From: Planctomycetota bacterium
Lineage (GTDB): Bacteria > Planctomycetota > UBA1135 > GCA-002686595
Direction: 5' to 3'
Assembly: GCA_016795325.1 (NCBI GenBank)
Contig: JAEUHY010000059.1
Location: 310,001-374,000 of the forward strand
DNA: 64,000 nt
The translations under genes and the position numbers were made by a program. Under the pieces are notes generated by a model. It was not told the origin of the DNA. It did no database searches and saw nothing but the letters and a program-made list of their open reading frames with translations. How positions within the stretch are numbered: position 1 is the stretch's first letter; every line of letters starts with the position of its first letter. Positions 2,589 through 27,535 of this stretch are shown in pieces.

Positions 2589-2745
2589 GCGCTGGAGCGT
2601 ACGGGGGCGGCGACTCGGGCGACAACTGCGCGCTCGCGCGGCGGCGCGGGAAGTCGCAGCAAACTCGAAATGCGCCCGCGCGCGCGCCGCTGTTACCAGG
2701 ACATGCACGCGCGGGGCTCGCGCGCTGCGCCGCTACGATCTCGAC

Positions 2746-4755: not shown

Positions 4756-4759
4756 GCTC

Positions 4760-6001: not shown

Positions 6002-6055
6002 GTCTCTCTCCTGGTTGCGCGAGTTTATCCGCGCTCCGAGCGCTAGCCTACGCAC

Positions 6056-6904: not shown

Positions 6905-7041
6905 CGCCGACGAGGCTTCGCGGCGAGCGTCGCGAACTCGCACACCTTGCCAGCAGGCTGCATGCAGGTCTGTTGGCAGCACATGACGCTGAGTCCACGC
7001 TCGTTGTGCTGCGTGGAAGCCGCGGCCGGGCGGCTCGTTGG

Positions 7042-8193: not shown

Positions 8194-8201
8194 GGGGCGC
8201 G

Positions 8202-12625: not shown

Positions 12626-12769
12626 GGGATGCTTGGAACTGTCGATGGTGAGGTTGAGACCCGCAGGTTTGAATGAAAATGATCGAGCACTGTGATTTCA
12701 CAGCTCGAGAGCTCCGCGGCGCGCACCGGAGCCCACGTTGAGCGCGTAACGGACGGAGAGGCTGAGACG

Positions 12770-13972
12770 ATGGGCGCCCCTTACGAACTCAAGAGCGTGG
12801 AATCGGCGCGTAGGGAAGTCGACGCCCTGCTGGAGCGCATCTGGGGACTTGGACAGCACAGCGAGTCGCTCGCGTTGGGCGACGCGCTGGCTGAGTTGAA
12901 AGCCATCGGAGAGGCTCTCCAGGCGCGGTGCCTGCTTCTGCGAAGCGTGCTGGATCGATCGGGCGAGGTCGTGTTCGCCAAGCACAAGGACGGGCGTTTC
13001 GCGCTGCTCAATCCCTACGCGGCCAGCGTGTTCGGCTGCCGCGTCGAAGACATCCTCGGGAAGGACGATCGCGCGCTCGCCACCCCGGCGGAGGCGCAAC
13101 GCATCATGGACATCGACGCCGCCGTCATGCGTTCGGGAACGCCGAGCACCCACACCCAGCGGCACGAGTTCGGCGGACGAAAGGTGGAGCTGATGGTGAC
13201 AACTACGGTCTGGCGCGATGAGGATTCCGAAGTGCGCGGCGTGATCGGAGTCGCTCGGGACGCTGCGAACAACCCGGTCGAGCAGGCCAAGACGAGCAAG
13301 CAACTCGACGCCCTGCGTGGCCTCGCCACGGAATCGGTGCTGCGCGAGGAGCGGCTCCGCCGAGCGCTGGCCGCAGAGTTGCACGAAGGGCTCGGCCAAG
13401 ACATCGCGTTGGCGCGCCTGCGCTTGTCGCAGCTACGGGCGCGGGCGGGGACGCAGCTGGACGCTCCACTGCGGGACATCGAAAGTCTGGTCGAGCAGGC
13501 CGACCGCTCGCTGCGAGCCATCTCGTTCCAACTCAGTCCGTCCGCGTTGCACGACCTGGGTTTGATCGCGGCGTTGGAATCGCTCGCGGACGAGCTCCGG
13601 CGTACGCTGCATCTCAGCGTCCGACTCGATTGCTCTTCGTCCGCGGCCCGCCTGGATGAACGCGTGGCGCTGATCGTGTACCGCGCCGTTCGAGAGCTGC
13701 TCGTCAACGTGGCGCATCACTCCGGTGTGCACGAGGCGACGGTGCGCGTCGAGTATGTCGAGCAAAGTCTGCGCGTGACCGTCGAAGATGTGGGCCGCGG
13801 CTTCGACGTGAACGACGCGTCGCTGCGCGGCTACGGGCTGTTCGGAATCGGGGAGCAGCTGCGCGCGCTGGGCGGCGGCATGCTCGTCGAGTCTTCCGCG
13901 GAGCATGGGGCCCGCGTGACGCTGACGGCTCCGCTCCACGTCGCCGCGACAGTGCTATCGCGCGACGTTTAG
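12770..13972 (+). CDS. NarL-type sensor histidine kinase with PAS domain (orphan)
   Basis: A 400-residue soluble kinase with an N-terminal helical segment, a PAS domain (about 60-180; VLDRSGEVVFAKHKDGRFAL, VFGCRVEDILGKD), a HisKA_3 box with H205 in AAELHEGLGQDIALARLRL, and an HATPase domain (ELLVNVAHHSG, DVGRGFD, GYGLFGIGEQL). The ATG at 12770 has GGAGAGG about eight bases upstream; a GTG at 12692 would add 26 residues. The H box reads LHE where LHD is usual, which may alter phosphatase activity in this family. No response regulator follows, so it probably feeds the upstream regulator. Confidence 0.85.
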   Translation: MGAPYELKSVESARREVDALLERIWGLGQHSESLALGDALAELKAIGEALQARCLLLRSVLDRSGEVVFAKHKDGRFALLNPYAASVFGCRVEDILGKDDRALATPAEAQRIMDIDAAVMRSGTPSTHTQRHEFGGRKVELMVTTTVWRDEDSEVRGVIGVARDAANNPVEQAKTSKQLDALRGLATESVLREERLRRALAAELHEGLGQDIALARLRLSQLRARAGTQLDAPLRDIESLVEQADRSLRAISFQLSPSALHDLGLIAALESLADELRRTLHLSVRLDCSSSAARLDERVALIVYRAVRELLVNVAHHSGVHEATVRVEYVEQSLRVTVEDVGRGFDVNDASLRGYGLFGIGEQLRALGGGMLVESSAEHGARVTLTAPLHVAATVLSRDV

Positions 13973-14433
13973 GCTTGTGCGCCCGTGGTGTTTGCGCGAG
14001 CGCCGTTTCGCAAACTTGCTGCGGAGGCGCGGGGAGAAGAAGTGCACGTTGATGCGCATGGTGCGCGGTTTGGCGTCCTCACACCGAGCTCCCACGACGG
14101 ATCCATGCGCCGCGAGTTGGCGTCGACGGCCGCTGTGGAGCGAGGTGCGCGACGCGTGATGCCCGCTGCGGAGTTCTCTAGAACGTGCAGGCAGCCGTCA
14201 ACGCAGCGGCTCTTTGTGGGCACGAGCGTGTCCGAGGCGGCGCACTCACTGCGTCCGTGCGCCCTTGTGTCGTGGGTGATGGAGTCGCAGGCTGGCGAAT
14301 CAGTGCAAACGCCGATGTTCGAGTGAGGGGCCGGCGCCTAGCGTGCGTCATGTCCGGTCAAAGCCCGTTTCGCGGCGACCAACTCCGAGGCCATAAGGCC
14401 GCCGCGCGTCCCACCGAGTAGTCGGGAGCCAAC
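13973..14433. other. Intergenic gap, no gene recognised
   Basis: About 460 bases between the second kinase and the GGDEF gene. Short frames exist on both strands (for example 13985-14326 plus and 13969-14223 minus), but they lack a Shine-Dalgarno and any family features, and their composition is not protein-like. The promoter of the GGDEF gene should lie in the 3' part; no clear promoter motif is seen. Confidence 0.5.
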
Positions 14434-16134
14434 ATGAACACGAGATCCGCGCAGCGAGTGGAACCCCGGGAGTCCGTCGGCGTAACCCATACACGCCAAC
14501 TCGTAGCGTCCAGTCGCTTGCTGCGAGTTTTCCTGGACGCCAACCCATTCGCCAACTTGGTGCTGTCCGAAGACGGTGCGGTGCTGATGGCGAGTCGCAA
14601 GGCCGCGTTGCTCCTGAAGCGGACCGAGTCCCAATTGCGAGCTGCGCTCCCGGGGCTCTACGTCGAGCGAGGCGCCTGCTTCAGCACCGCGGCCGATCCT
14701 GAACGCAGATTCGATGTGCGGACCTCGACGGTCGAAGTTGAGGACGCCCTCTTTCGGCTGGTGACGCTCTTCGAGCGCAACGCCGTGACGCCCGACCATG
14801 TGACGCTGGAGACGCTGCTGCGCACGTCCCGCGCGCGCGAGGAGCAGCTCTCGTATTTGGCCAGTCATGACCCGTTGACCGGGGTGCTCAACCGGCGGGG
14901 CTTGGAGCTCGAGGCGCTTTCGGAAGCTGGGCGTTCGCGCCGCTCGGGCGCAACTCTGGCCGCGGTGTTGATCGACTTCGACGACTTCAAGCTCGTGAAT
15001 GCGAGCCTCGGTCAGTCGGGTGGGGACCGCGCGCTGCGGGAGATGGCGATGCGGATCGAGGGCGCTCTCCGGCCGACGGATCGAATCGGCAGGATCGGCG
15101 GAGACGAATTCCTGGTGCTCTTGCCGGACACACGCTTGGCGGAAGCAGGTCGCGTTGCCGAGCGCATCCGAGCGGAGATCGCGACCCTCGAGTTCGCGAG
15201 TTCGGGCGGTCCCGTTGCGCTCACAGTCAGCGTGGGCGTGGTCGCCCTGCCCGACGATGTCACTTCCCTGGAGCGCGTGGTTTCGCTGGCGGACGCCCCG
15301 CTGCGTCGGAGCAAGGCTCTGGGCAAAAACCACGTGTACACGCTGACAGATAGCGCTGGGGTGGAGGCCCGTAGCGGGGAGGACTCCGCGCAATCGCCCG
15401 GACTCCCAGGTCTCCGCGTCGTGGTGCGCCCGGTGGTCAGGATCGGAGATCGCCGAACGGTTGCATGGAAGCTTGACGCTCTCGACGGGTGCGGTCGCTC
15501 CAGCGGTGCGCTCGATCCTCGCTCCTCGCTGAGTGCTCTCGCCGAGTCCGAAGCGCTGGATCTCGAACGCCTTCGTTTGTGTCTGGACCATCGCGCGCCG
15601 GGCGGGGACGGTTGCGAATGGCGAGTGCGGCTCGCGCCGGGCACGCTGCTCGAGCGTCGGTCGCGTGACGTGGTCCTGGGGCTGCTCGCCGCCAACGTTG
15701 GTCAGCCCGTGTGTCTGGAGTTCAGCGAACAGCAACTGGTTGGCGACCCGGGGGATTTCGTGGCCGCGCGAATGTCGTTGCGCGAAGCCGGCGCGCGAAT
15801 GGCGTTGATCGACGTAGGCGTCGGTCGCGCTGCGCTCGAGGCCCTGGTCGTGCTCGCGCCGGACGTCGCCGAGTTGAGCTCGCGCCTTGCGCCTCTCGCG
15901 GTCAACGACGCTTTGCGGGAGCGCGCGCTCGGTCGGCTCGCTCGACTCGTACGTGGTCTGGACTGCGAATTGGACATCGCAGGGGTGGACGATGAGCACG
16001 TATTGAACTGTGCGCGCACCGCAGGCGCCGACTACGCGGTGGGTGCGATGTGGGACGCGGCGCTACCTGCTTCCAGCGCGAAGACTGATGGTTGGCCCCG
16101 ATCGTCGCGACTGCAGGTCCGGGCTACAAAGTGA
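14434..16134 (+). CDS. GGDEF diguanylate cyclase with degenerate EAL-like C-terminus
   Basis: A 566-residue protein. An N-terminal PAS-like region (about 28-120; LRVFLDANPFANLVLSEDG) precedes a GGDEF domain (about 140-305) with the entry motif SHDPLTGVLNRRG and an intact GGDEF active site (IGRIGGDEFLVLLPD), so c-di-GMP synthesis is plausible. The C-terminal 230 residues keep the length and fold cues of an EAL domain (VVVRPVVRIGDRRTVAWKL, CLEFSEQQL, MALIDVGVG), but the EAL triplet is replaced by KLD and the metal-binding acidic residues are largely gone. It is probably a non-hydrolytic binding or regulatory domain. The ATG at 14434 follows GGGAG. It probably ties the two-component module to c-di-GMP signalling. 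Confidence 0.8.
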   Translation: MNTRSAQRVEPRESVGVTHTRQLVASSRLLRVFLDANPFANLVLSEDGAVLMASRKAALLLKRTESQLRAALPGLYVERGACFSTAADPERRFDVRTSTVEVEDALFRLVTLFERNAVTPDHVTLETLLRTSRAREEQLSYLASHDPLTGVLNRRGLELEALSEAGRSRRSGATLAAVLIDFDDFKLVNASLGQSGGDRALREMAMRIEGALRPTDRIGRIGGDEFLVLLPDTRLAEAGRVAERIRAEIATLEFASSGGPVALTVSVGVVALPDDVTSLERVVSLADAPLRRSKALGKNHVYTLTDSAGVEARSGEDSAQSPGLPGLRVVVRPVVRIGDRRTVAWKLDALDGCGRSSGALDPRSSLSALAESEALDLERLRLCLDHRAPGGDGCEWRVRLAPGTLLERRSRDVVLGLLAANVGQPVCLEFSEQQLVGDPGDFVAARMSLREAGARMALIDVGVGRAALEALVVLAPDVAELSSRLAPLAVNDALRERALGRLARLVRGLDCELDIAGVDDEHVLNCARTAGADYAVGAMWDAALPASSAKTDGWPRSSRLQVRATK

Positions 16135-16214
16135 TTCTCTGCGTGGGCGGGGCGCTCGGTCGTCGAGCCAGGGGTAGCTGGAGTGTGCCAGGCCTCAACG
16201 CTCCACACGTACCA

Positions 16215-17117
16215 ATGAATGGAATGCAAATGGTTACCAACAATCTCATGGGCGTGGCAGGGGCTGTGCTTGGACTCGCAACCTTCACAACCGTCAACAT
16301 GGACGCCAAGACCGCACCCAACATCTGGTTGACCACCGAGTTGATCGGAATGAAGGTCGTTTCGCAGGACGGCGTCGGCTTGGGGAAGATCGAAGACGTG
16401 GTCGTACACCCGGGAAGTCGCCCCGCGTACGCGGTGTTGACGTTCGGCGAATGGCACGGGATGGGCGACAAGCACTTCGCCATGCCCTGGAGCGTTCTTC
16501 GCACCGTGCAGCTCGATTCGACCAAGAAGGACAGCGCGCGCTCGCTGGTGCTGCCGCTGGACCGCGAACGCCTGAAGACTGCGCCCGGTTTCGACAAGAA
16601 CAACTGGCCCAGCTTCGCGAACGCCGACTGGGCGAAGGACATCGACGTGTTCTACGTCGGTGACAGCAATCCCAACTTGGCGGCGACCACCGGCGTGGCT
16701 CCTGCGCCGCTCACTCACCTCGTTTGGCGCGTGAGCGAACTCAAGGGTGTCACGGTGACCAATCCGGACAACGTGACCTTGGGTGACATCCAGCAGCTGG
16801 CGATCGACGGGAACGGCCGGGTCAGTTATGCGACCCTGTCGGTCGGCGGCTTCCTCGGCATCGGCGACCGCGTCGTTCCGATTCCCTGGGACATGCTCAA
16901 ATTCAGCGTCGGCGGCGACAAGTCCGACAAGAAGCTGATCAGTTTGGCTTCCACGAAGAAGCAACTGGAGCAGGCGCCCGAGTTCCAGTCCGGCAAGGAA
17001 CACCGCGCGCAGATGTGCGACTTGAAGTGGGTCCAGCGCGTTTACGACCACTTCTCCTGCCCGATCTACTGGACCCCGTCGGGCGCCATCGAAGCCGGTT
17101 CGGGTTCCGCCAAGTGA
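16215..17117 (+). CDS. Tandem PRC-barrel domain protein, probably exported
   Basis: About 300 residues with a hydrophobic N-terminus (NNLMGVAGAVLGLATF) resembling a signal segment and two PRC-barrel domains. The first begins TELIGMKVVSQDGVGLGKIE and ends FAMPWSVLR; the second begins SELKGVTVTNPDNVTLGDIQ and ends VPIPWDMLK. Such domains occur in stress-induced and envelope-associated proteins and usually bind partners. Three closely spaced ATGs (16215, 16224, 16230) make the start uncertain. A GC-rich hairpin lies 43 bases after the stop. Its position next to DUF883 and holin-like genes points to an envelope-stress role. Confidence 0.78.
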   Translation: MNGMQMVTNNLMGVAGAVLGLATFTTVNMDAKTAPNIWLTTELIGMKVVSQDGVGLGKIEDVVVHPGSRPAYAVLTFGEWHGMGDKHFAMPWSVLRTVQLDSTKKDSARSLVLPLDRERLKTAPGFDKNNWPSFANADWAKDIDVFYVGDSNPNLAATTGVAPAPLTHLVWRVSELKGVTVTNPDNVTLGDIQQLAIDGNGRVSYATLSVGGFLGIGDRVVPIPWDMLKFSVGGDKSDKKLISLASTKKQLEQAPEFQSGKEHRAQMCDLKWVQRVYDHFSCPIYWTPSGAIEAGSGSAK

Positions 17118-17160
17118 CTCGGGGCGCCACCGCTGTGTCCTCGCCGCAGCGGGCGCCCTT

Positions 17161-17200
17161 CGAGGGCCGCGAGTTCGGGTCAACCGACTCGCGGCCCTCG
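17161..17200 (+). terminator. GC-rich hairpin, probable terminator
   Basis: An inverted repeat with left arm CGAGGGCCGCGAGTTCGG, loop GTCAA and right arm CCGACTCGCGGCCCTCG forms about 17 base pairs with one bulged T. It sits 43 bases after the PRC-barrel stop. No strong U-tract follows, so it may act as a transcript-end stabiliser rather than a classical terminator. It is the only structure noted in the 364-base gap 17118-17481; no gene is supported in the rest of the gap. Confidence 0.55.
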
Positions 17201-17481
17201 TCTCACCGCGCTCGGCGCGGAGAAGCGATACAGCCCGGCGAAGCTGCCGAACGGCGTCGCTGCTTGCTTCTCGCCATCGCGTTCGGCGGCTTCTGCCTGT
17301 GCTTCATGACTTCCGCGTCGCCCGTAGCCCGCGTCTCGCCCGACACGTCGACCGCGACGGTGGGCGTCGTCGCGACTCGCGCACGGGCGTCCGCGCGAAC
17401 TCGAAACGTGCGCCGCTCAGGCGCGCGCGACGATTGCGCTCTTGTGACTTCTCCCATTCTCCTTCGTCTGCACAAACTCCA

Positions 17482-17754
17482 ATGACCAGTACGCACTCGA
17501 CTCTCTCGGACCTTTCCGACTCCGTGTCCCGACAAGCTTCCAAGCTCATGGGCTCGACGCCCGACGGTTCGACGCTCGGCGACTCCGGAATTGCCTCGCG
17601 GATTCGTGAAACCGTCGACGCCACCAAGGATCGCGCCGTCCACTGGACTCACACTCTGCAGGAGGGCGTCCGCCAGGACCCGATCCGCTCGCTGGCGATC
17701 GCCGCCGGAGTCGGCGTGGTTCTCGGCGTCATCCTGGGCCGCCGAAGCCGCTAG
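17482..17754 (+). CDS. DUF883/YqjD-like membrane-anchored protein
   Basis: A 90-residue protein with a long amphipathic helical region (SDSVSRQASKLMG; SRIRETVDATKDRAVHWTHT) and a C-terminal glycine-containing membrane helix (SLAIAAGVGVVLGVILGRRSR). This is the hallmark layout of the DUF883 (ElaB/YqjD) family, tail-anchored inner-membrane proteins that can bind ribosomes in stationary phase. Start chosen at MTSTHSTLSDL. It heads a close group with the holin-like and third membrane genes, matching the yqjD-yqjE-yqjK type arrangement known elsewhere. Confidence 0.75.
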   Translation: MTSTHSTLSDLSDSVSRQASKLMGSTPDGSTLGDSGIASRIRETVDATKDRAVHWTHTLQEGVRQDPIRSLAIAAGVGVVLGVILGRRSR

Positions 17755-17780
17755 ACAAAGAAGCCGGGACGCCGCTCGCC

Positions 17781-18302
17781 ATGCAGCACTCGAACCCCTG
17801 CGCGTCGGATGCGCCCCCGTTTGGGGCTGACGGCCTTGCGGCGTCAGCCTCAGCGACGGCCTCGGCGCCTTCGACATCTCCCGACGATTCCAAGGGGCGT
17901 CCTCCAGAGAGCGGTGGTGACGTGCTCACCGACCTCGGCGGCGCGACACAGGCCGTGCAGCGCTGGTTCGAGGTGCTCACGGACCGCGCCGCGTTTGCGG
18001 CCCGTCGCTCCATGCTTCGGGTCGTGATCGCGCTTGTCGTCGCAGCCAGCGCGACCCTGTGGATCGGAGCTGCATTGCTCGCGCTGCTGCGCGGAGTGTG
18101 CGGCGCTTTCGCCTCGCTCGGCGGCGGCGCGGCTTGGGTCGGCGACCTGGTCGGAGGCGCCGTTGCCGTCGGCGCCGCGTGCGGCGCCTTCGCGCTCGGT
18201 CTACGCGTGGATTCGTGGTTGCGCCTGCGCGCGCTCCGCGTGAAGTACGCGCGCATGACGAGTCCCGCCGGCGGCGTCGATGTCCCCGGAGGAACAGCGT
18301 GA
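17781..18302 (+). CDS. Putative holin-superfamily (YqjE-like) membrane protein
   Basis: A 173-residue protein with a Ser/Ala-rich disordered N-terminus, a cytosolic helical stretch (ATQAVQRWFEVLTDRAAFAARR) and two hydrophobic helices (VVIALVVAASATLWIGAALLAL and VGGAVAVGAACGAFALG). This matches the small phage-holin superfamily III/YqjE-type proteins that accompany DUF883 genes. It starts 26 bases after the DUF883 stop and its stop overlaps the next start as GTGA, so it is co-translated with its neighbours. It is more likely an envelope-stress factor than a phage holin, since no phage genes are near. Confidence 0.65.
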   Translation: MQHSNPCASDAPPFGADGLAASASATASAPSTSPDDSKGRPPESGGDVLTDLGGATQAVQRWFEVLTDRAAFAARRSMLRVVIALVVAASATLWIGAALLALLRGVCGAFASLGGGAAWVGDLVGGAVAVGAACGAFALGLRVDSWLRLRALRVKYARMTSPAGGVDVPGGTA

Positions 18303-18619
18303 GCGCGCTCGAGGATTTCCTGGCGGAGCAAGAAGCTCGAGCTCTTGCAGACCTCGGCGGCTCACTCTCCGCCGCGGGCGAGCGCGTCCTGCGTTCGGTC
18401 GATGTGCGAGGCTGGGTTCGCGCCCGGCCGTTGGTCGCTATTGGTTTCGCTGGCGTCTGCGGAATAGCGCTCGCCCGCTTGTTCGCCGGCGGCCTCACGG
18501 GCGCCGGACGCTCTGTGGCGCAGTCGGGCGCCGCTCTCGCCGTACGCCATCAGCTGTTCTCCATGGCTCATCGCGCCTTCTTCCGAGGCTCGAGCCCACC
18601 GCGCTCCGGGTCGGTTTGA
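18299..18619 (+). CDS. Small membrane protein, third gene of a YqjD/YqjE-type cluster
   Basis: A 106-residue protein starting with GTG at 18299 that overlaps the previous stop and has GGAGGA at 18288-18293. An amphipathic N-terminal helix (ALEDFLAEQEARALADLG) is followed by one membrane helix (RPLVAIGFAGVCGIALARLFAGG). This is similar in layout to DUF883/DUF3618-type proteins, and the segment RARPLVAIG is typical of them. Coupled translation with the holin-like gene suggests the three proteins act together at the inner membrane. Confidence 0.68.
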   Translation: MSALEDFLAEQEARALADLGGSLSAAGERVLRSVDVRGWVRARPLVAIGFAGVCGIALARLFAGGLTGAGRSVAQSGAALAVRHQLFSMAHRAFFRGSSPPRSGSV

Positions 18620-18671
18620 TCTTCGGTGCGCCTCCTTTTCGTTCCTTCTACGTCGGATCGGGAGATTCGTA

Positions 18672-18821
18672 GTGCTCTACACCATCGCAGTCGTCCTTCT
18701 TGTTCTCTGGCTCCTCGGCATGGTCACCACGACCACGCTCGGCGGCTTCATTCACGTTTTGCTCGTCATCGCTGTGGTGATCGTGCTGCTGCGCGTGATC
18801 TCCGGCCGCAGGGCGGTCTGA
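18672..18821 (+). CDS. DUF5670 (lmo0937)-type small membrane protein
   Basis: A 49-residue protein translated from GTG at 18672, preceded by GGAG at 18661-18664. It reads MLYTIAVVLLVLWLLG, then a Thr-Gly turn (TTTTLGGFIH), then VLLVIAVVIVLLRVI with a short basic end. Two membrane helices joined by a Gly-Gly-(F/L)-I-H hinge are the signature of the lmo0937/DUF5670 family, widespread in stress-related gene groups of Gram-negative bacteria. It sits between the YqjD-type trio and a DUF3185-like gene, all on one strand. Confidence 0.8.
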   Translation: MLYTIAVVLLVLWLLGMVTTTTLGGFIHVLLVIAVVIVLLRVISGRRAV

Positions 18822-18839
18822 AAAGGGATTGCCAAGACC

Positions 18840-19040
18840 ATGAATCGAACACTATCGATCGTCGTGCTCCTCGTTGGACTGGTCCTGCTCGTTCTAGGTT
18901 TCAACGAGTCGGAGTCCGTCGCCTCGGACTTCTCACGCCTGTTCACCGATGAGCCGACCGATCGCGCGCTGTGGCTGCTGATCGGCGGCGGAGCGTTGGC
19001 GTTGATCGGCGCCGCCGGGCTGTTTCGCGGCGAGAAGTGA
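18840..19040 (+). CDS. DUF3185-like small membrane protein
   Basis: A 66-residue protein with two membrane helices (IVVLLVGLVLLVLGF and WLLIGGGALALIGAAGLF) separated by a polar loop containing SESVASDFSRLFTDEPTD. The helix/acidic-loop/helix pattern with SD-SRLFT-PTD-WLL matches the DUF3185 family. The ATG at 18840 lies 18 bases after the DUF5670-like stop. Function is unknown; the context points to envelope homeostasis. Confidence 0.75.
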   Translation: MNRTLSIVVLLVGLVLLVLGFNESESVASDFSRLFTDEPTDRALWLLIGGGALALIGAAGLFRGEK

Positions 19041-19103
19041 AGCGGCGCAGCTTCTGCTTCCCACGTGGATAGCGGATGACGCGACGCAGGTTCCCGGCGT
19101 TCT

Positions 19104-19550
19104 TCAGCCGGGGCCAGTCGGCGCGGTTCGTCGCTGGATTTCGCGCTCGAGCGCTAGCGCGCGCGACAACGCGCTGGCCAGCACGACGACGTACAGGCCG
19201 TGCCACAAAGCGCCGCGCGTCAGCAGTTCGGGCTCCAAAACGCCTTTGCAGATCCACGAGAGCACGTACGCGAGGAGTGCGCCGCCCATGGCCTTCGCCG
19301 GGCTGCGCCGAGCGAAGGCGAAGGCCGCGAAGTGGCATGCGCACTCGAGCGCAAGGCGGACACAATGCAGCCAAGCGATTCGCCGTGCGTCTGAGTCGAG
19401 TCCGACACCGCTCGCCTGCGCCGCGCTCAGTGCGCTGCCGATAAGGCAAAAGATGCCGAGCGTCAGCACGAACCAAGCGGCGTACCGCAGTTGGCTTCGT
19501 AAGGACTCGACGGTGTAGGACGGCGCTACGCGGCGTTCGATGTCGGACAT
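19104..19550 (-). CDS. Hypothetical four-helix membrane protein
   Basis: A 148-residue protein, MSDIERRVAPSYTVESLRSQ, with about four hydrophobic helices (AAWFVLTLGIFCLIGSALSAA, VRLALECACHFAAFAF, GGALLAYVLSWI, LYVVVLASALSRALAL). No family is recognised. It follows the YkgJ-type gene by 27 bases on the same strand and may be the last gene of the aminomutase/ATP-grasp operon. The hydrophobic pattern makes it a credible gene even without homology. Confidence 0.65.
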   Translation of the reverse strand: MSDIERRVAPSYTVESLRSQLRYAAWFVLTLGIFCLIGSALSAAQASGVGLDSDARRIAWLHCVRLALECACHFAAFAFARRSPAKAMGGALLAYVLSWICKGVLEPELLTRGALWHGLYVVVLASALSRALALEREIQRRTAPTGPG

Positions 19551-19577
19551 GTGCAGCGCCGTTCGACTGCGTTGCGG

Positions 19578-20114
19578 CTACTTGCGGAAGCGCCAGTCCT
19601 CGTCGCCCGACTCGAGGCGTTCGACGAGCGCGATTTCCGGCGCGCTGGTCTTGACCGCCTTCTTCGGCGACTCCTTCGGGTTGAGGCAGAACAGGTCCCA
19701 CGCTTCGCCGCGCACCTTCCACTGCCGCACGTACCACTTGTTGCCCTTGACCTGATCGAGCGGGAACACCGCACACACCCAGGGCTTGTACTTAAAGGTC
19801 GAGCCTTCGGTCGCGCCGACCTTGTGCAGGACGCAGCCTTCGTTGAAGAACACGCACCAGCTGGCGTCGACGGCGAGCATCGGCAACCCGCCCTTGGTGC
19901 GCTTGGTGAGAAACCCGCGGGTCTCGATCACTTTGCGCGCGCTGGGGCGCAGGTGCGGCAGGAACTTCTTCAAGTTCGCCTGGATGCGTTTGGCTTCGCC
20001 GGGCTCGACCGGCGGCCGGCCGTTCTGGCAGCACACACCGCCGCACTTGGGGAACACGCACTCAAAGCGCGCGGTGGCGGCGTTTTCGATCTCGATCTTG
20101 GCCTGGTCGCTCAT
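19578..20114 (-). CDS. YkgJ-family Cys-cluster protein (DUF3109-like)
   Basis: A 178-residue soluble protein with the N-terminal Cys cluster C19, C24, C28 and C29 (FECVFPKCGGVCC), followed by PVEPGEAKRI and further cysteines in WCVFFNEGC, WVCAVFPL and FCLN. This is the YkgJ/DUF3109 type, thought to bind a metal or Fe-S cluster. The length fits the family. It starts 27 bases after the GNAT stop within a same-strand run led by lysine 2,3-aminomutase; related genes often accompany modification systems, but its role here is unknown. Confidence 0.78.
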   Translation of the reverse strand: MSDQAKIEIENAATARFECVFPKCGGVCCQNGRPPVEPGEAKRIQANLKKFLPHLRPSARKVIETRGFLTKRTKGGLPMLAVDASWCVFFNEGCVLHKVGATEGSTFKYKPWVCAVFPLDQVKGNKWYVRQWKVRGEAWDLFCLNPKESPKKAVKTSAPEIALVERLESGDEDWRFRK

Positions 20115-20124
20115 CGCTGGATAG

Positions 20125-20156
20125 CAGGGGTAGTAGACGAATCAGGGGTAGTAGAC
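20125..20156. repeat. 18-bp tandem duplication at the GNAT 3' end
   Basis: CAGGGGTAGTAGAC occurs at 20125-20138 and again at 20143-20156, a period of 18 bases. On the minus strand this repeats the last codons VYYP of the acetyltransferase, so a second copy lies directly after its stop codon. Confidence 0.7.
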
Positions 20157-20621
20157 ATAGACGAGCTTGTCGTCGCCCACGCGGTAGAAGTCGGGATAAC
20201 GGGCCAGCAGTTTGCAGCCCACGCGTTCGTAGAACGCGCGCTGCTTCTCGTACTCGGGCTTGCCCGCGGTTTCGATGATGATCATGCGGCCGGCGAGCGC
20301 GCGGATGCGTTCGGCGGTCGCGTGGAGGAGCTGGCGGCCGACGCCGAAGCGCTGCGCGTCGTCGCGTACGACGATCCAGTACAGGTCGTACACGCCGTCG
20401 GTCATCGCGGTGCGGCCGAAGCACGAGTAACCGAGCGCCGCATCGTGCTCATCTGCGGCGACGACGAACAAGTACGGATCGACGCGCTGGGCGCCCAGGC
20501 CGGCGTCGATCAGTTCGAGCGCGACCGCGACCTCTTCCTCGTTGAACGCGCCCGTGCTGCGGATGGCGCGCTCGAGCGGCGCGCGGTCGGCGGCGCGCAA
20601 TTCACGCAGCTGGATGTGCAC
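20142..20621 (-). CDS. GNAT-family N-acetyltransferase
   Basis: A 159-residue GNAT protein. The core has beta strand 4 (GVYDLYWIVVRDDAQRFGVG), the acetyl-CoA pyrophosphate loop RFGVGRQLL (R/Q-x-x-G-x-G/R type), and AFYERVGCKLLARYPDFYR near the C-terminus. It overlaps the 3' end of the second ATP-grasp gene by 20 bases, so translation is coupled. Next to lysine 2,3-aminomutase it recalls AblB, the beta-lysine N-acetyltransferase, but it is much shorter than AblB; acetylation of a beta-amino acid or a derived peptide is inference only. Confidence 0.83.
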   Translation of the reverse strand: MHIQLRELRAADRAPLERAIRSTGAFNEEEVAVALELIDAGLGAQRVDPYLFVVAADEHDAALGYSCFGRTAMTDGVYDLYWIVVRDDAQRFGVGRQLLHATAERIRALAGRMIIIETAGKPEYEKQRAFYERVGCKLLARYPDFYRVGDDKLVYVYYP

Positions 20622-21612
20622 GTCGCAGGGCGCTTTCCACGATGCGGGCGATCACATCGTCGTAGGACAGTCCCGCGCGTTGCGCGGCGAGCAGGAAGCC
20701 CGCGCCGGGCGAGATGTCGGGGTTGGGGTTGACGTCGATCACGAACGGCTCGTCGCGCGCGTCGAGCCGGAAGTCGACGCGGCCGTAGTCGCAAAGGCCC
20801 AGCACCTCGAAGGCGCGGCGCGCGACGCGCTCGAGCTTGTCGCGCTGCCCGGCGGCGAACTCGCGCGCGGGGATGACCTGCGTGAGGTTCCAATCGCGAC
20901 TGCCTTCGATCCACTTGCCGGCGTAGGTCACGATGTGCGCCTCGTCGCGGGCAAAGCCTGAGTAGTCGATCTCCGACAGCGGCAGCAGTTCGAGACCGCG
21001 CGGCCCGGCGAGCAGCGCGGCATTGATCTCGCGCGCTTCGATGTACTCCTCGACCAGCGCGGGCTGCGCGTAGCGCTCGATCACGAAGCTCGCGCGCGCA
21101 CGCAGCGCGCGTTCGTCGCGCACCACGCTCTCGGCCGCGATGCCGTGGCTGGCGTCCTCACGCGCCGGCTTGACGATCAGCGGGAAGCGCAGGTCGCCCA
21201 GCGGCGCGTCCGGCCGCTCGAACACCGCGCCGCGCGGAACGGGCAGTCCGGCCGCGGCGAGCACGCCGCGCGCCAGGGGCTTTTCGAGGCACAGCCCGAG
21301 CGCGCGTGGCCCGGCGCCGGTGTAGGCGATGCCGTGCAACTCCAGCAGCCAGGCGAAGGCCTGGTCCTTGCGCGGGTCTCCGCCGAGGCCTTCGACGAGG
21401 TTGAAGGCGAGCTCGGTGCGCAGCTCGGCGACCTGGCGCACGGCCTCACGCGGATCCGGCGCGAGGCCGAGTTCCTGCGCGGCGTGTCCGTGCGTGCGCA
21501 ACGCCTTCGCGACGGCCGCGGCGCACTCCGCCACCGCTTGAACGGCGATGGCGTCCTGCGCGTCGCCGTGCGTCAGCGAGGCGTCGTCGTTGTAGAGAAC
21601 CGCGATGTTCAT
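20602..21612 (-). CDS. ATP-grasp ligase, D-Ala-D-Ala-ligase-like (second of two)
   Basis: A 336-residue ATP-grasp protein. The N-terminal domain (MNIAVLYNDDASLTHGDAQD) is followed by LAFNLVEGLGGD, the ATP-binding lysine region FPLIVKPAREDASHGI, the carboxylate loop VEEYIEAREINAALL and the metal-binding end VDFRLDARDEPFVIDVNPNPD. The tail SYDDVIARIVESAL matches D-Ala-D-Ala ligases. The predicted chemistry is ATP-dependent formation of an amide between two amino acids via an acylphosphate. It follows its paralogue by 48 bases and overlaps the GNAT gene. Because a housekeeping Ddl would not be duplicated beside an aminomutase, a dedicated dipeptide-forming role is inferred. Confidence 0.82.
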   Translation of the reverse strand: MNIAVLYNDDASLTHGDAQDAIAVQAVAECAAAVAKALRTHGHAAQELGLAPDPREAVRQVAELRTELAFNLVEGLGGDPRKDQAFAWLLELHGIAYTGAGPRALGLCLEKPLARGVLAAAGLPVPRGAVFERPDAPLGDLRFPLIVKPAREDASHGIAAESVVRDERALRARASFVIERYAQPALVEEYIEAREINAALLAGPRGLELLPLSEIDYSGFARDEAHIVTYAGKWIEGSRDWNLTQVIPAREFAAGQRDKLERVARRAFEVLGLCDYGRVDFRLDARDEPFVIDVNPNPDISPGAGFLLAAQRAGLSYDDVIARIVESALRRAHPAA

Positions 21613-21660
21613 GCTCGTGGGCCGGAGTGCGGCGGCGCCGCAAAATCCGGCCAGGCGCCG

Positions 21661-22665
21661 TCAGAGCCGCAAGCGCGCGCAGGCGCGGTCGAGGATCGAC
21701 AGGATCAGATCGTCGTAGCTGCGCCCGACGCGCTCCCACAGGAGCGCGATGTCGCTCCAGCCCGGCGCGAGTCCGGGCAGGGGATTGAGCTCGATGAACT
21801 TCGGCGCGCCGTTCGCGTCGCAGCGGACGTCGACGCGGCCCACGTCGCGGCAGTCGAGCGCGCGGTACGCGTCGAGCGCGACCTGCTCGATCTGCGCCAC
21901 CTCGCGCACGGGCCGGCGCGGCGGGGCGTCGTAGCGGATCTCCTCGCGCCAGTTGGGGTTGCGCTTGACCTCGAGCGAGTAGACGAAGTCGGCGACGGGC
22001 GTGACCAGCGGAACGACCTCCATCGCCGAGACCACGCGCGCCTCGGCGCCCGTGCCGAGGATCGCCACGGTGAACTCGTGTCCGCCGCAGAACTCCTCGA
22101 CCAGCACCGGTTCGCCGTAGTCGTCGAGCAGGCGCTGGACACGTTCGCGCAACTGCGCTTCGTCGGCGCAGCGCGAACGGCGTCGCACGCCCATGCTCGA
22201 GCCTTCGAACAGCGGTTTGGCGAACAGCGGGTAGGGCAGCACCAAGTCGGAGAGCTGCGCAACCTGGGTCACCACGGCGAAACGCGGCGTGGGCACGCCG
22301 GCGCTCGCCACGACGCGCTTGGCCATGGCCTTGTCGAGCGACACGGCCATGGTCAGCGGATCGGAGTGAGTGCACGGAATGCCGAGCAACTCGCACAAGG
22401 CGGGCACGTGCGCTTCCCGCGAGCGTGAACCGCGCCCTTCGGCGAGGTTGAAGACCAGATCCGGCCGCGCTTCGAGCAGGCGCTCGACGAAACGCCGCCC
22501 GCCCCCGAGCAACACCGGCTCGTGCCCGCGCGTGGTGAGCACGCGCGCGATGGCCTCGACGGTGGCGGGGGAGTCGTACTCCTCCAGCAGGTCATCGGGC
22601 GCGTCGGCCGGCAGGGCCGACGCGTCGAAGTCCGCCTTCAAATCGAAGGCGATGCCGATTTTCAT
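21661..22665 (-). CDS. ATP-grasp ligase, D-Ala-D-Ala-ligase-like (first of two)
   Basis: A 334-residue ATP-grasp protein starting MKIGIAFDLKADFD. Motifs seen are PDLVFNLAEGRGSRSREAHV, the ATP-site lysine in YPLFAKPLFEGSSMGV, VEEFCGGHEFTVAIL, and the Mg-binding VDVRCDANGAPKFIELNPLP. The N-terminal segment with DDLLEEYDSPATVEAIARVL replaces the usual GG-S-E-H motif of true Ddl enzymes. It starts 10 bases after the aminomutase stop, so it is in the same transcript. The substrate is probably an unusual amino acid; beta-lysine supplied by the neighbour is an inference. Confidence 0.82.
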   Translation of the reverse strand: MKIGIAFDLKADFDASALPADAPDDLLEEYDSPATVEAIARVLTTRGHEPVLLGGGRRFVERLLEARPDLVFNLAEGRGSRSREAHVPALCELLGIPCTHSDPLTMAVSLDKAMAKRVVASAGVPTPRFAVVTQVAQLSDLVLPYPLFAKPLFEGSSMGVRRRSRCADEAQLRERVQRLLDDYGEPVLVEEFCGGHEFTVAILGTGAEARVVSAMEVVPLVTPVADFVYSLEVKRNPNWREEIRYDAPPRRPVREVAQIEQVALDAYRALDCRDVGRVDVRCDANGAPKFIELNPLPGLAPGWSDIALLWERVGRSYDDLILSILDRACARLRL

Positions 22666-22675
22666 GGCGCTGCGC

Positions 22676-24091
22676 TCAGCTCTTGGGCTTGGGCTCGCCC
22701 TCGGCGGCCCGCGCTCCGGCGTTGCGGCGCGGCGCCGCTCCGCGGTGCACCCAGCGGCTCTTGCCGACGACCTTGGCTTCGCCGGGCGCCGCGTTTTCGC
22801 CGTCCTTGTTCACCGACTCCACGGGACCCGAGCGCTTCTTGCGCGGCCGGATCTCGTCGCCCACGCGCAGCGGCTCGATGTACTCGTACAGCTTGCCCGC
22901 GAAGTTGCGCAGCAGTGCGCGGCCGTTCTTCGGCTCGTAGCGCAGCAGGTAGTCCGGCTGCACCGGGATCTTCCCGCCGCCGCCCGGCGCGTCGACCACG
23001 TAGGTCGGCACGGCGAGACCGCTGATGTGACCGCGCAGGCCCTCGATGATCTCCAGGCCCTTGGAGATCGGCGTGCGGAAGTGCTCCGCGCCGCGCACCG
23101 GGTCGCACTGGTAGAGGTAGTACGGGCGCACGCGTTGCTTCATCAACCCCGTGCACAGCGCGCGGATGGTCGACACGCTGTCGTTCACGCCGCGCAGCAG
23201 CACCGCCTGGTTGTTGAGCGGAATGCCCGCTCGGCTGAGCTTGTCGCAGGCGCGCGCGGTCTCGGGCGTGAGCTCGCGCGGGTGGTTGAAGTGCACGTTG
23301 ATCCACAGCGGGTGGTAGCGCTGCAGCATGTCGACGAGCTCGTCGTCGATGCGCTGCGGCAGCGCGACCGGCACGCGCGTGCCGATGCGGATGATCTCCA
23401 GGTGCGGGATCGCGCGCAGCTTGGAGAGGATCGACTCGAGCTTCTGGTTCGAGTAGTTGAGCGGGTCGCCGCCCGACACGATCACGTCGCGGATCTGCGG
23501 CGTGCGCGCGATGTAGGCGACCATCGCGTCGATCTCGACGTCGGGGGTCGCGCCCTCGTACATCGTGCGCTTGCGCGTGCAGTAGCGGCAGTAGATCGCG
23601 CAGTTGTTCGAGATCACCATCAGCGCCCGGTCGGGGTAGCGATGGGTGATCCCGGGCACCGGCGAGTAGTTCTCCTCGCCCAGCGGATCTTCGTCTCCGA
23701 CCGCGCGGTAGCGGAACTCCTCTTCGAGCGGCACGACCTGGCGCAGGATCGGATCGTTCGGATCGTCCGCGTCGATCAGCGAGAGGTAGTAGGGCGTGAT
23801 GCCCATGCGGAAGTCGCGCAGCACCTGGGCGCGCGCTTCCCACTCGCTGGGCGGGATCGCGAGCTTCTTGGCCAGCTCCTCGAGCGTCGTGACGCGGTTC
23901 TTGAACTGCCAGCGCCAGTCGGACCACTCGGCGTCCGACACTTCTGGGTAGTAGTGCGCCCGGCCTGTGCGTCGATGCGCTGCGGGTGCTGCGAGCGACG
24001 GAGCGATGGAGTCGCTCGCCAGTTGCGTGCTAACTGGTGGTTCCGAGTCGATGACGTTTTGGAGGGTCGACAGATCGACGTTTTCGGGCAT
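22676..24091 (-). CDS. kamA: Lysine 2,3-aminomutase (radical SAM, PLP)
   Basis: A 471-residue KamA-family protein. The radical-SAM cluster ligands are C164, C168 and C171 in CAIYCRYCTRKR, followed by the SAM-binding SGGDPL. The PLP lysine is K374 in DAPGGGGKIPV. D330 (YLYQCD) and D367 (VVDAPG) have the same 37- and 7-residue spacing to each other and to the PLP lysine as Asp293, Asp330 and Lys337 of the clostridial lysine enzyme, where the two Asp residues bind the lysine side-chain amine; this favours L-lysine over glutamate. The product would be L-beta-lysine. About 60 extra residues at the C-terminus are Lys/Arg/Ala-rich. It leads the ATP-grasp/GNAT run. Confidence 0.88.
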   Translation of the reverse strand: MPENVDLSTLQNVIDSEPPVSTQLASDSIAPSLAAPAAHRRTGRAHYYPEVSDAEWSDWRWQFKNRVTTLEELAKKLAIPPSEWEARAQVLRDFRMGITPYYLSLIDADDPNDPILRQVVPLEEEFRYRAVGDEDPLGEENYSPVPGITHRYPDRALMVISNNCAIYCRYCTRKRTMYEGATPDVEIDAMVAYIARTPQIRDVIVSGGDPLNYSNQKLESILSKLRAIPHLEIIRIGTRVPVALPQRIDDELVDMLQRYHPLWINVHFNHPRELTPETARACDKLSRAGIPLNNQAVLLRGVNDSVSTIRALCTGLMKQRVRPYYLYQCDPVRGAEHFRTPISKGLEIIEGLRGHISGLAVPTYVVDAPGGGGKIPVQPDYLLRYEPKNGRALLRNFAGKLYEYIEPLRVGDEIRPRKKRSGPVESVNKDGENAAPGEAKVVGKSRWVHRGAAPRRNAGARAAEGEPKPKS

Positions 24092-24367: not shown

Positions 24368-25210
24368 TCAGCGCAACGGCTTGCGGGCGACGACCTCGAA
24401 GACCGTCGGCAGCACCACAAAGTCCGTGTCCGCCCGCAGGCCGTCGAAGTCCTCGTGGAAGCGCCGTTCCTCGGCCGGGCTGATTTCGCCGAGCTTGACG
24501 AGCTTGGGGGTGAACGTCCGCCACCAGCTCGCGACCCACTGCCACATGCTCTCGCCCGGCCGGGCGATGCGCTGGTGCACCTCGAGCCGCTCGAGTTCGA
24601 GGCCGTGGGCGGCCAGCAGACTCGGAACGCGCCCCATGACATCGGGGTCTCCGCCGGGCTTGCGCCACGAACGCGCCGTCGCGGCGACGACCCGCGTGAA
24701 CGATTCGCGCCGCGGCGCCGCAGTCATGCACTCGTAGTTGAAGTAGTCGTGGATCACGAGGCGGCCGCCCGGGGCCAACGCCGCGGCCGCGCCCGCGATC
24801 ACCGCCCCGGGATCGGGAACGAAGCACAGCACCCAGCGCGCGTAGGCGAGCTCGAACGGCGCCTCGCCGGCCAGAACTTCCCTCAGTTTCTGGACGTCGC
24901 CGACGCGCCCCGCGAGCTGGGTCAGGCCTCGCGCGGCGGCCTGTGCGCGCAGGTGCTCGACGAAGGCGCGTGATTCGTCGACGCCGACGACGCGGCCGGC
25001 CGACTGCACGAGTTGCGCGAGGTCGAACGCCGCGTAGCCCGGCCCGCAACCGATGTCGAGCGCGCGTTGGCCCGGCTGGACACGGGCGCTCTTCCAGGCC
25101 TGATGAGCGGCGTCGGACCACAGGCGGTGCTGCAGCCCGAGCCGTTCGAGTTCGTCGGCGCCGGTTCCCAGAACGTATTCGCGCTCGTCGACGTTGGCTG
25201 TCGGTTTCAT
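24368..25210 (-). CDS. SAM-dependent class I methyltransferase
   Basis: A 280-residue methyltransferase beginning MKPTANVDEREYVLGTGADE. The SAM-binding motif I is ALDIGCGPGYAAFDLA, motif II is VVGVDESRAFVEHL, and the post-motif region contains ARWVLCFVPDPGAVIAGAAA and LAPGGRLVIHDYFNY. This is typical of methyltransferase domain 11/25 enzymes. The ATG at 25210 is preferred over a TTG three codons upstream. The acceptor is unknown. It lies 18 bases after the DabB-like gene on the same strand and may be a passenger of that operon. The 276-base gap downstream towards kamA (24092-24367) shows no gene. Confidence 0.85.
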   Translation of the reverse strand: MKPTANVDEREYVLGTGADELERLGLQHRLWSDAAHQAWKSARVQPGQRALDIGCGPGYAAFDLAQLVQSAGRVVGVDESRAFVEHLRAQAAARGLTQLAGRVGDVQKLREVLAGEAPFELAYARWVLCFVPDPGAVIAGAAAALAPGGRLVIHDYFNYECMTAAPRRESFTRVVAATARSWRKPGGDPDVMGRVPSLLAAHGLELERLEVHQRIARPGESMWQWVASWWRTFTPKLVKLGEISPAEERRFHEDFDGLRADTDFVVLPTVFEVVARKPLR

Positions 25211-25228
25211 CGACCCCAAACTAGCGCG

Positions 25229-27535
25229 CTACGCGTGCGGGAGCAGCAGCGCGGGCGCGAAGCCGAACAGGAGCAGGACCAGCACCGCCGCCGTGAGCAG
25301 CGCGAGCTTCCAGCGCTCGGTCGCCTTGGGGTCGACGTCCTGCGTCGCTCGTTCGGGCCCGCCGAACAGGCCCAGGTAGAGCCGGTAGAACGCGAGCGCG
25401 TTGAACGCAGCCGCCACGATGAAGCCTGCGGTGGCCGCGACCGAATGTTCCACCAACGCGTGGAACAGGAGGTCTTCGGCGAAGAACGCCACGCCGCCCG
25501 GCAGTCCGACGCACAACCAACCGCACACGCCGAACAGGCGATGGAGCGCGGGCGCGCGCTCGGCCAAGCCCTGTTGCGAGTTGGCCGAGAGCGCGCCGAA
25601 GCGCCGGCGCAACTCGAGCGTGATGGCGAGCAGCACGGCGCCGCAGCCCATCAGGCTCACGAGCATCGTGCGCGCCGCGTCCCAACCGTGCTCGCCCGCG
25701 GCCGCGCCGGCGAGTACGAGCGCGGACTGCGACTGCAGGATCGCGCCGAGCACGCGTTCGGGTTCGCTGCGCACCAGGCCCAGGCCCGCTTGCAGCACTG
25801 CGGCGCCGACGAAGAGGACCTGCAGCACTTCGAGCGTGTGCGGTTCGAGCGCCGTGGGGTGTGCGTGGACGAAGCCGTGCAGCAACGCCACGAACGGTTG
25901 TGCGACGAGCACGATGGCGTAGTCCGCGCGGCCCAGCGAACGGCGCAGGGACTCGAGCCACAGGTGCGCCGGCGCCACGCCGGAGCCGATCAGCAGGCAC
26001 AGGGCGAGCGCCCACTGCGGCATGTCCGGTGCGTACAGCGCCACCGCGCCAGCCGCGCCGCCGACGAGCGCGAGCAGCGGCAGGCCGGCGCCAGAGCGGC
26101 CGAGGCCGCGCACGACCGTCCACGCGCCGAAGGCCAGCCACACCGCGCTCAGCGCGAGCGGTTCGCGCAGGAACCAGATCGAGGCGGCGAGGAGCAGGCC
26201 GACGACGAACCCTGCGAGTCCGCCGCGTGCCTTGTCCGTGGCTGTGGGCTCGCCGGCGCCGACGATGCGCGCCTCGAGCCACTGCACGCCGGCGAGGGCG
26301 CTGAGCAGCGGCCTCGCGAACATGCGCCACTGCAGCGCGTCCAACCAGAATTGCCGCACTGCCGCCAGGTAGACCCGTCGCTCCCAGCGCGAGCCGCCCA
26401 GCGCCGAGCCGACGCCGCTGCGCAAGCGCAGCTTGACGTCCGCACCGACGAGCGGATTGGCCTGGAAATCCTGGATCAACGAGCTCGAACGCAGGAACTG
26501 CCATGTCCGCAGACCGGCATGGGCCCACAGGTGGGCCAGTGCGATCTCGTGCAGGCCGAGCGCGACTTCGACGTACATCACGCCCAGCTGGCTCATCGTC
26601 GCGTAGGCGATCGCCGTCTTCGCGTCGGAGCGTGTGCGGCCCACGAGCGAGCCGTAGACCGCAGTGCTCACGCCCACGATGGCGCACGCCGCACGCACGA
26701 CGAACTGCTCGCCCCACAGCGGCTCGGTGCGCAGCAGCAGCCAGGGACCCAGGTGCACGCTCAGCGCGCCGTAGAAGATCGCGCTCGACGCCGCCGGGCC
26801 TTCCATGGCGCGGTGCAGCCAGGGCGACATCGGGAGCTGCGCCGACTTCGCGAGCGAGCTGAACAGGATCAACAGGCCGATCGCCGTCGCGCTCGCCGCG
26901 CTGGCCCCGGGGCCGAACTGAAGGAAGTCCGCGCTGGCGAGGTCGTGGTGGATGAGCACCACGGCGAACAACATGCCCGCGTCGCAGATGCGGTAGTAGA
27001 CCAGCGTGCGCAGGCTGTTCTGCGTGCTGCGCGGGTTGGCGCGGAAGAAGGCGATCAGGCTCACCGAGCACACGCCGACCAGTTCCCAGCCGACGAACAA
27101 CACGTCGATGTTGCCGGCCAGCGACACCAGCCAGAGGGCGAGCGCGAGCAGGCTCACGAGGAACCAGTAGCGCTGCGCGCCGGGCTCGCGATGGAAGGCT
27201 GGAATCGAGAAGCGCACGACGACCGGATAGATCAGCGCGACCAGCAGCACGTACGCGAGGGAGAGCCGGTCGAGCAGGAACACGGGCGTCCACTGGTAGC
27301 CGTGGAACTCGAGCAACGCCGGGAGGCGCAGCTCTCGCGCGGGACTGTCGCCGGCGACGTGCGAAATGCACAGCCCTGCGGCGACGATCAGCAGCGCGAC
27401 GGCCTGGGCGTTCGCGCTCTGTTGGCAGCGGCGTTCGCTCAGCGGCGCACCTACGAGCAACGTCAGCCCCATCGCGATGACCGGCAGGAACGCGGCGACC
27501 AGACCCGCCGCAAGCAGCGTTTCGAGCAGGCTCAC
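25229..27535 (-). CDS. dabB: DabB-like proton-conducting membrane subunit
   Basis: A 768-residue polytopic membrane protein related to NuoL/MrpA proton-translocating subunits. Features are FVGWELVGVCSVSLIAFF, the channel region SPWLHRAMEGPAASSAIFYGA (with the E and neighbouring residues of the antiporter fold) and DAKTAIAYATMSQLGVM. It has a second hydrophobic half with APAHLWLESLRRSLGRADYA. The GTG start at 27535 overlaps the DabA stop as GTGA, so subunits are co-translated. In characterised DAB systems this subunit couples a cation gradient to DabA for directional CO2 hydration. No other Nuo or Mrp genes are near, which argues against complex I or Mrp. A longer upstream frame lies within dabA and is rejected. 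Confidence 0.83.
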   Translation of the reverse strand: MSLLETLLAAGLVAAFLPVIAMGLTLLVGAPLSERRCQQSANAQAVALLIVAAGLCISHVAGDSPARELRLPALLEFHGYQWTPVFLLDRLSLAYVLLVALIYPVVVRFSIPAFHREPGAQRYWFLVSLLALALWLVSLAGNIDVLFVGWELVGVCSVSLIAFFRANPRSTQNSLRTLVYYRICDAGMLFAVVLIHHDLASADFLQFGPGASAASATAIGLLILFSSLAKSAQLPMSPWLHRAMEGPAASSAIFYGALSVHLGPWLLLRTEPLWGEQFVVRAACAIVGVSTAVYGSLVGRTRSDAKTAIAYATMSQLGVMYVEVALGLHEIALAHLWAHAGLRTWQFLRSSSLIQDFQANPLVGADVKLRLRSGVGSALGGSRWERRVYLAAVRQFWLDALQWRMFARPLLSALAGVQWLEARIVGAGEPTATDKARGGLAGFVVGLLLAASIWFLREPLALSAVWLAFGAWTVVRGLGRSGAGLPLLALVGGAAGAVALYAPDMPQWALALCLLIGSGVAPAHLWLESLRRSLGRADYAIVLVAQPFVALLHGFVHAHPTALEPHTLEVLQVLFVGAAVLQAGLGLVRSEPERVLGAILQSQSALVLAGAAAGEHGWDAARTMLVSLMGCGAVLLAITLELRRRFGALSANSQQGLAERAPALHRLFGVCGWLCVGLPGGVAFFAEDLLFHALVEHSVAATAGFIVAAAFNALAFYRLYLGLFGGPERATQDVDPKATERWKLALLTAAVLVLLLFGFAPALLLPHA

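Follow-up and report, generated by a model that had tools for sequence, protein, structure and literature searches.

Why should two genes resembling those for D-alanine--D-alanine ligase (Ddl) lie directly behind a gene for a lysine 2,3-aminomutase? The question is raised by a locus of a Planctomycetota bacterium (assembly GCA_016795325.1; 6.48 Mb in 64 contigs), of which a stretch of 64,000 nucleotides (contig JAEUHY010000059.1, positions 310,001 to 374,000), termed the window below, was analyzed. In it, kamA is followed on the minus strand by two Ddl-like ATP-grasp ligase genes (AG1 and AG2), a gene for a GNAT N-acetyltransferase, and a gene for a cysteine-cluster protein of the CxxCxxCC type. 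This four- to five-gene block looks like an undescribed pathway. We consider it probable that the operon encodes a dedicated route from lysine to beta-lysine, followed by two ligations and an N-acetylation, which would yield a short, probably intracellular beta-lysine peptide. No description of the operon or pathway was found in the full-text literature searched; Iyer et al. 2009 (ATP-grasp amidoligases), the likeliest place for an earlier mention, lies outside that text.

Layout and conservation of the operon

The following open reading frames (ORFs) make up the block:

22676-24091, minus strand: kamA, 471 amino acids, first gene of the operon; lysine 2,3-aminomutase-type radical S-adenosylmethionine/pyridoxal phosphate (PLP) enzyme
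21661-22665, minus strand: AG1, Ddl-like ATP-grasp ligase 1, 334 amino acids, PF07478; starts 10 nt past kamA
20602-21612, minus strand: AG2, Ddl-like ATP-grasp ligase 2, 336 amino acids, PF07478; 48 nt past AG1
20142-20621, minus strand: GNAT N-acetyltransferase, 159 amino acids, PF13508; 20-nt overlap with AG2
19578-20114, minus strand: CxxCxxCC/YkgJ-like (DUF3109) Cys-cluster protein, 178 amino acids, PF11307; 27 nt past the GNAT gene
19104-19550, minus strand: membrane ORF, 148 amino acids; 27 nt past the CxxCxxCC gene; probably outside the conserved system

An earlier note on this DNA had described six close-packed genes on one strand. All six ORFs, their coordinates, and their spacing (10, 48, -20, 27, and 27 nt) were exactly as described, and searches with Pfam and NCBIfam profiles confirmed the family labels of the operon genes. 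The third-position G+C content (GC3) was of the coding type in all six, being lowest in the membrane ORF (0.79 versus 0.89-0.92 for the other five). The membrane protein, however, was not conserved even within the genus. No tblastn match to it was obtained in the sister genome of the same genus, in which the operon stops at the CxxCxxCC gene, or in the loci of the other genomes compared. Since the sister genome lacks it, the ORF was rejected as an operon member, and the conserved unit was set at the five genes of 19578-24091 instead of 19104-24091.

The spread of the operon was surveyed by scanning named records with an alignment of AG1, which yielded at least 584 relatives, of which the best 80 were used. 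These came from Planctomycetota, Chloroflexota, Deltaproteobacteria, Alphaproteobacteria, Acidobacteria, Bacteroidota, Lentisphaerae, Ozemobacter, Cyanobacteria, and others, the closest named record to the window AG1 being the Planctomycetota metagenome-assembled genome (MAG) PLA3 with 89% identity. Sufficient flanking sequence was available for 52 AG1 loci; kamA was present in 46 of them, AG2 in 45, GNAT in 36, and all three in 34. At the named loci, start and stop codons of adjoining operon genes often overlapped. The conserved order kamA-ddl-ddl-GNAT that the earlier note had proposed to search for was thus found: kamA-AG1-AG2-GNAT, with or without the CxxCxxCC gene and with overlapping genes, was kept in relatives at the genus, family, and order level, and kamA-AG1-AG2-GNAT recurred in at least seven phyla, so that the case of a neighborhood conserved in no relative does not apply. 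Rearranged or partial forms occurred in other relatives (L041, L042, L053). In a MAG of Nostoc, a gene for a SET-domain protein was inserted between kamA and AG1 (L112:1945-2343). Rhizobial plasmid ATP-grasps (NGR234 and others) were set aside as AG2-like, and the two that were read in detail had no KamA.

Linkage was tested independently with the solved GNAT structure 2r7h as query against 345 Desulfobacterota genomes. In this sample, a close relative was present in 101 genomes. At the loci found by way of the GNAT alone, AG1 and AG2 adjoined it in 18 of 18 cases and kamA in 16 of 18. More distant GNAT homologues on plasmids of Deinococcus and Aquisphaera had no ligases adjoining, so that the linkage of GNAT and ligases is specific. 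One Desulfobacterota genome had the operon twice, the copies (L160, L161) lying about 1 Mb from each other. Among 292 sampled Planctomycetota genomes, AG1 matched at E<=1e-60 in 52, the weakest of which may be of the AG2 type; the spread was patchy.

The lysine aminomutase and the two ligases

KamA of the window exceeded the cut-off of TIGR00238. Its best equivalog was AblA (TIGR03820) with 489.9 bits, below the cut-off of 525.4, and nine other operon-linked KamAs likewise stayed below it. The catalytic part aligned with lysine 2,3-aminomutase 2a5h at E=1.5e-142, and C125/C129/C132, R134, D293, D330, and K337 were kept in this alignment. As established from the structure of lysine 2,3-aminomutase, Asp293 and Asp330 bind the ammonium group of lysine, and Lys337 holds PLP. 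All 95 linked KamAs (78 + 17) retained the CxxxCxxC cysteines (one with a gap there), Arg134, Asp293, Asp330, and the PLP-binding Lys337. Because these lysine-type residues are kept, the predicted conversion of L-lysine to beta-lysine as the first step is well supported; the earlier note had reached this view from the Asp/Asp/Lys spacing of lysine-specific enzymes, and the invariant residues bear it out. The residues are discriminating: a distant KamA-like paralogue elsewhere in the same genome (contig C55) and two relatives carried Arg/Ser at the Asp293/Asp330 positions, although the Asp pair was also present in some further KamAs not linked to the operon.

Beta-lysine also serves as a modifier of EF-P in enterobacteria. 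That KamA supplies it for this purpose and the other genes are unrelated scarcely merits consideration: KamA does belong to the right family, but with 284.8 bits it remained far under the EpmB cut-off of 369.3, and no EpmA above the cut-off was found in the genome, the best candidate (235.7 versus 286.9) being a 518-amino acid frame that is probably LysRS. Moreover, the conserved pair of ligases would be left unexplained.

AG1 and AG2 both contain PF07478 and stayed under every Ddl equivalog and subfamily cut-off. With the Ddl profile NF002378 (cut-off 243), they scored 152.3 and 122.4 bits, respectively. A separate PF07478 protein of the same genome, on contig C19 (at ~350k), cleared this cut-off with 244.7. 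Given this true Ddl and two further paralogues, the ddl copies of the genome are not confined to AG1 and AG2. Phylogenetic analysis of 195 sequences showed AG1 as monophyletic (support 0.986) and AG2 as grouped with a second Planctomycetota paralogue family (0.981), both clades falling outside the true Ddl clade (0.94). The contention of the earlier note that the ligases do not look like housekeeping Ddl, for which it had suggested a phylogeny against true Ddl, thus held for the profile scores as well as for the tree. Both ligases retained the residues for ATP and Mg (Lys97, Lys144, Glu180, Glu187, Lys215, Arg255, Asp257, Glu270, and Asn272), the only exceptions being conservative Asp/Glu exchanges and a single gap. 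On the substrate side, Glu68 of Ddl was replaced by Arg in all AG1, Tyr216 by Trp in all AG2, and Ser281-Leu282 was also replaced. The two enzymes probably ligate substrates different from D-Ala. AG1 probably uses beta-lysine, since it remains beside kamA at loci that lack AG2 (L091, L106, L138).

It could be argued that the ligases act on D-amino acids to build peptidoglycan or resistance-type termini, as Ddl and Van do, and that kamA is a chance neighbor. Fold, Pfam family, and ATP/Mg catalytic residues are indeed shared with Ddl and Van, and the best profile matches in the PDB were Ddl. The genome, however, has its separate Ddl, AG1 and AG2 lie under all family cut-offs in clades of their own, the substrate-side residues of Ddl are exchanged for other invariant ones, and the linkage to kamA is kept across phyla. 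We regard this explanation as very improbable.

Further ligases of related type were encountered in other settings. The two additional Ddl-like ATP-grasps of the source genome (C42:17397-18302, L054; C21:12704-13597, L055) group with AG2, and the gene on C21 adjoins that for a Peptidase_Mx-type zinc metallopeptidase. A MAG of Myxococcales encodes a tandem AG1-AG1 fusion and, behind it, a peptidase of family S58 (DmpA/BapA type) (L116:819-5174), and an S58 peptidase was also found near AG1 in L136. Family S58 includes beta-aminopeptidases. With these two loci only and none in the source genome, the peptidase was rejected as a general operon partner. On plasmid pTHIMO01 of Thioflavicoccus mobilis (841-15728, L141), genes for a diaminobutyrate transaminase, sbnA, and an ornithine-cyclodeaminase-like protein precede that of an AG2-like ATP-grasp, with a convergent KamA gene. 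Here, the ligase comes after genes for diaminobutyrate and diaminopropionate biosynthesis, and the cluster is possibly a pathway for a diamino-acid peptide.

Proposed acetylation and the likely nature of the product

The operon GNAT gave only a weak match to the RimI profile of NCBIfam. Its predicted model (pLDDT 95) was nearest to 2r7h/DDE_3044 of Desulfovibrio desulfuricans (TM 0.92, E=2.5e-55), and further structural neighbors were small-molecule acetyltransferases (PA4866, ArsN) and RimI. The protein 2r7h, a structural genomics entry named "putative D-alanine N-acetyltransferase," is thus a member of the operon GNAT family, but it is a structure deposition only; the one paper found to name 2R7H concerns a Salmonella toxin, and no account of the pathway was found in the papers searched. 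In about 10 loci, AG2 and GNAT were fused in one gene, which suggests that acetylation is tied to the AG2 step.

In 13 loci, the operon was linked to a gene in which a GNAT-like N-terminal domain is fused to an acetylpolyamine amidohydrolase (APAH) (e.g. L113:4759-6501), located ahead of AG1 or past AG2 or GNAT; the GNAT-like domain was detected by Pfam in two of these 13. This deacetylase was not present in the window. The catalytic motifs of the APAH domain agree with those of 6phr. The domain is the same as in the acetylpolyamine amidohydrolases 6phr and 3q9b, from which the fusion differs by its additional N-terminal domain and its linkage to a ligase operon. Enzymes of the APAH family strip acetyl groups from aminoalkyl amines. 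Because beta-lysine bears an amine of this type, the fusion fits an acetylation of beta-lysine.

Cys19/24/28/29/87/94 of the CxxCxxCC protein were conserved, and its predicted model was of moderate confidence (pLDDT 75). Differing CxxCxxCC subtypes occupied other operon positions in 13 of the 80 named loci. A probable role of the protein is to assist the Fe-S enzyme KamA, possibly as an Fe-S or metal partner, although the inference is weak.

A lysine 2,3-aminomutase and an acetyltransferase in one operon recall AblA/AblB, which is cited in PMC3543383 as the system for the osmolyte N-epsilon-acetyl-beta-lysine (Pfluger et al. 2003). If the operon were of this type, KamA and GNAT would form N-epsilon-acetyl-beta-lysine, and the ATP-grasps would be accessory. 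KamA is closest to AblA, the clade of the classical AblA sequences lies among the operon-linked KamAs, and a GNAT is linked. The GNAT, however, is not AblB (TIGR03827), which was matched neither by it nor anywhere in the genome; it is fused to AG2 and not to KamA; and kamA-AG1 occurs without GNAT (L091, L106, L138). Moreover, it is the two added Ddl-like ligases that accompany kamA most constantly. An osmolyte operon of the AblAB type is accordingly unlikely, and the composition differs from this known beta-lysine system, as the earlier note had held, with KamA under the TIGR03820 cut-off and AblB missing.

In the N-acetylglutaminylglutamine amide (NAGGN) system, Ngg is a GNAT/ATP-grasp fusion. 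The coupling of an acetyltransferase to an ATP-grasp ligase for an N-acetyl dipeptide is common to both systems, and the AG2-GNAT fusions mirror Ngg. The ATP-grasps of the operon, however, are PF07478 proteins of another subfamily, and a lysine aminomutase and a second ligase are present instead. Ngg was not matched by the GNAT and was not among the best 25 families for AG1 or AG2; an asparagine-synthase-like gene was not seen, though no genome-wide search for AsnO was made. The logic of the operon is like that of AblAB plus NAGGN, but it is not AblAB, and the observations gave no sign that it is NAGGN.

A secreted specialized metabolite was also considered, that is, an antibiotic-like beta-lysine peptide following the logic of streptothricin or bialaphos, in which GNAT would serve self-protection or add a protecting group and the APAH would activate the product. 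Phosphinothricin, ArsN, and tabtoxin-resistance acetyltransferases are among the structural neighbors of the GNAT, acetyltransferase and deacetylase share one operon, and the distribution is patchy. The conserved core, however, has no exporter, and neither nonribosomal peptide synthetases nor polyketide synthases were found in the flanks examined. Because the same four-gene unit occurs in very different lineages, Dehalococcoidia included, a metabolite of the primary type suits the data better. A secreted compound thus appears rather unlikely, if less so than an AblAB-type osmolyte.

The dedicated beta-lysine peptide pathway that we favor would proceed as follows. KamA would convert L-lysine to beta-lysine. 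AG1 would use ATP to activate the carboxylate of one amino acid and join beta-lysine to it, or join beta-lysine to a second amino acid, and AG2 would form a second ATP-dependent amide bond. Coupled to the AG2 step, GNAT would acetylate a free amine on either the peptide or beta-lysine, the CxxCxxCC protein would probably support KamA, and in some lineages the GNAT-like/APAH fusion may take the acetyl group off again as deprotection or turnover. In this scheme, we infer the order of the ligations, the identity of the partners, the site of acetylation, and the intracellular product, the last because the conserved core has no exporter. The end product would be a short N-acetylated beta-lysine peptide acting as a compatible solute, protectant, or storage compound and not as a secreted antibiotic. 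Only tentatively do we suggest that such di- or tripeptides form a widespread undescribed intracellular class with these functions, with acetylation reversed by the APAH fusion in some lineages.

The tight same-strand spacing of the genes, their order kept across phyla, the retrieval by way of the GNAT, the residues of KamA and the ligases, and the two kinds of fusion speak in favor of the pathway, with the S58 and Thioflavicoccus neighborhoods in support; several observations weigh against it. AG1-AG2 occurred without adjoining kamA in Nannocystis (L087/L100) and in L062, and kamA-AG1 without AG2 in L091 and L138, so that different lineages may make different products. The Asp pair of KamA is also kept in AblA and other KamAs outside such operons and is silent on the later steps, for which the substrates and products of ligases and GNAT are only predictions. 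The settings with S58 and in Thioflavicoccus are infrequent. An intracellular location is suggested solely by the absence of a transporter from the conserved core, and a MarC (NAAT) transporter adjoins the operon in five Dehalococcoidia/Chloroflexi loci. Finally, the habitats indicated by many record titles (lakes, groundwater, peat, sludge) do not particularly favor a salt osmolyte.

If the proposal is correct, a large set of environmental bacteria shares one metabolite not yet described. The operon genes at present mostly carry labels based on family similarity only, such as "D-alanine--D-alanine ligase," "ATP-grasp domain-containing protein," and "GNAT"; ligases specific for beta-amino acids might then join the Ddl superfamily, and the misannotation of Ddl paralogues would be corrected. 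Expressed as one construct, the four-gene operon could reveal the compound.

Neighboring genes

Two sets of flanking genes were rejected as parts of the system. A methyltransferase gene (24368-25219) and DabA/DabB genes lie upstream and are syntenic in the genus-mate, but they start 276 nt off and are unlinked to the operon elsewhere. Genes for an exopolysaccharide (EPS) flippase and a GT4 protein, syntenic with 7045-9521 of the window, trail the operon at three loci of Planctomycetota (L059, L060, L061) and were not found at the other loci. They come directly after the operon in the sister genome, whereas in the window about 9.5 kb with PRC-barrel, DUF883-like, and GGDEF/EAL genes (9521-19104) part them from it. 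The DabB-like antiporter is encoded by a single frame of 808 amino acids in the window (25229-27655) versus two overlapping frames of 433 and 345 amino acids in the sister genome (L059:4131-6466), reflecting either a frameshift or a genuine split.

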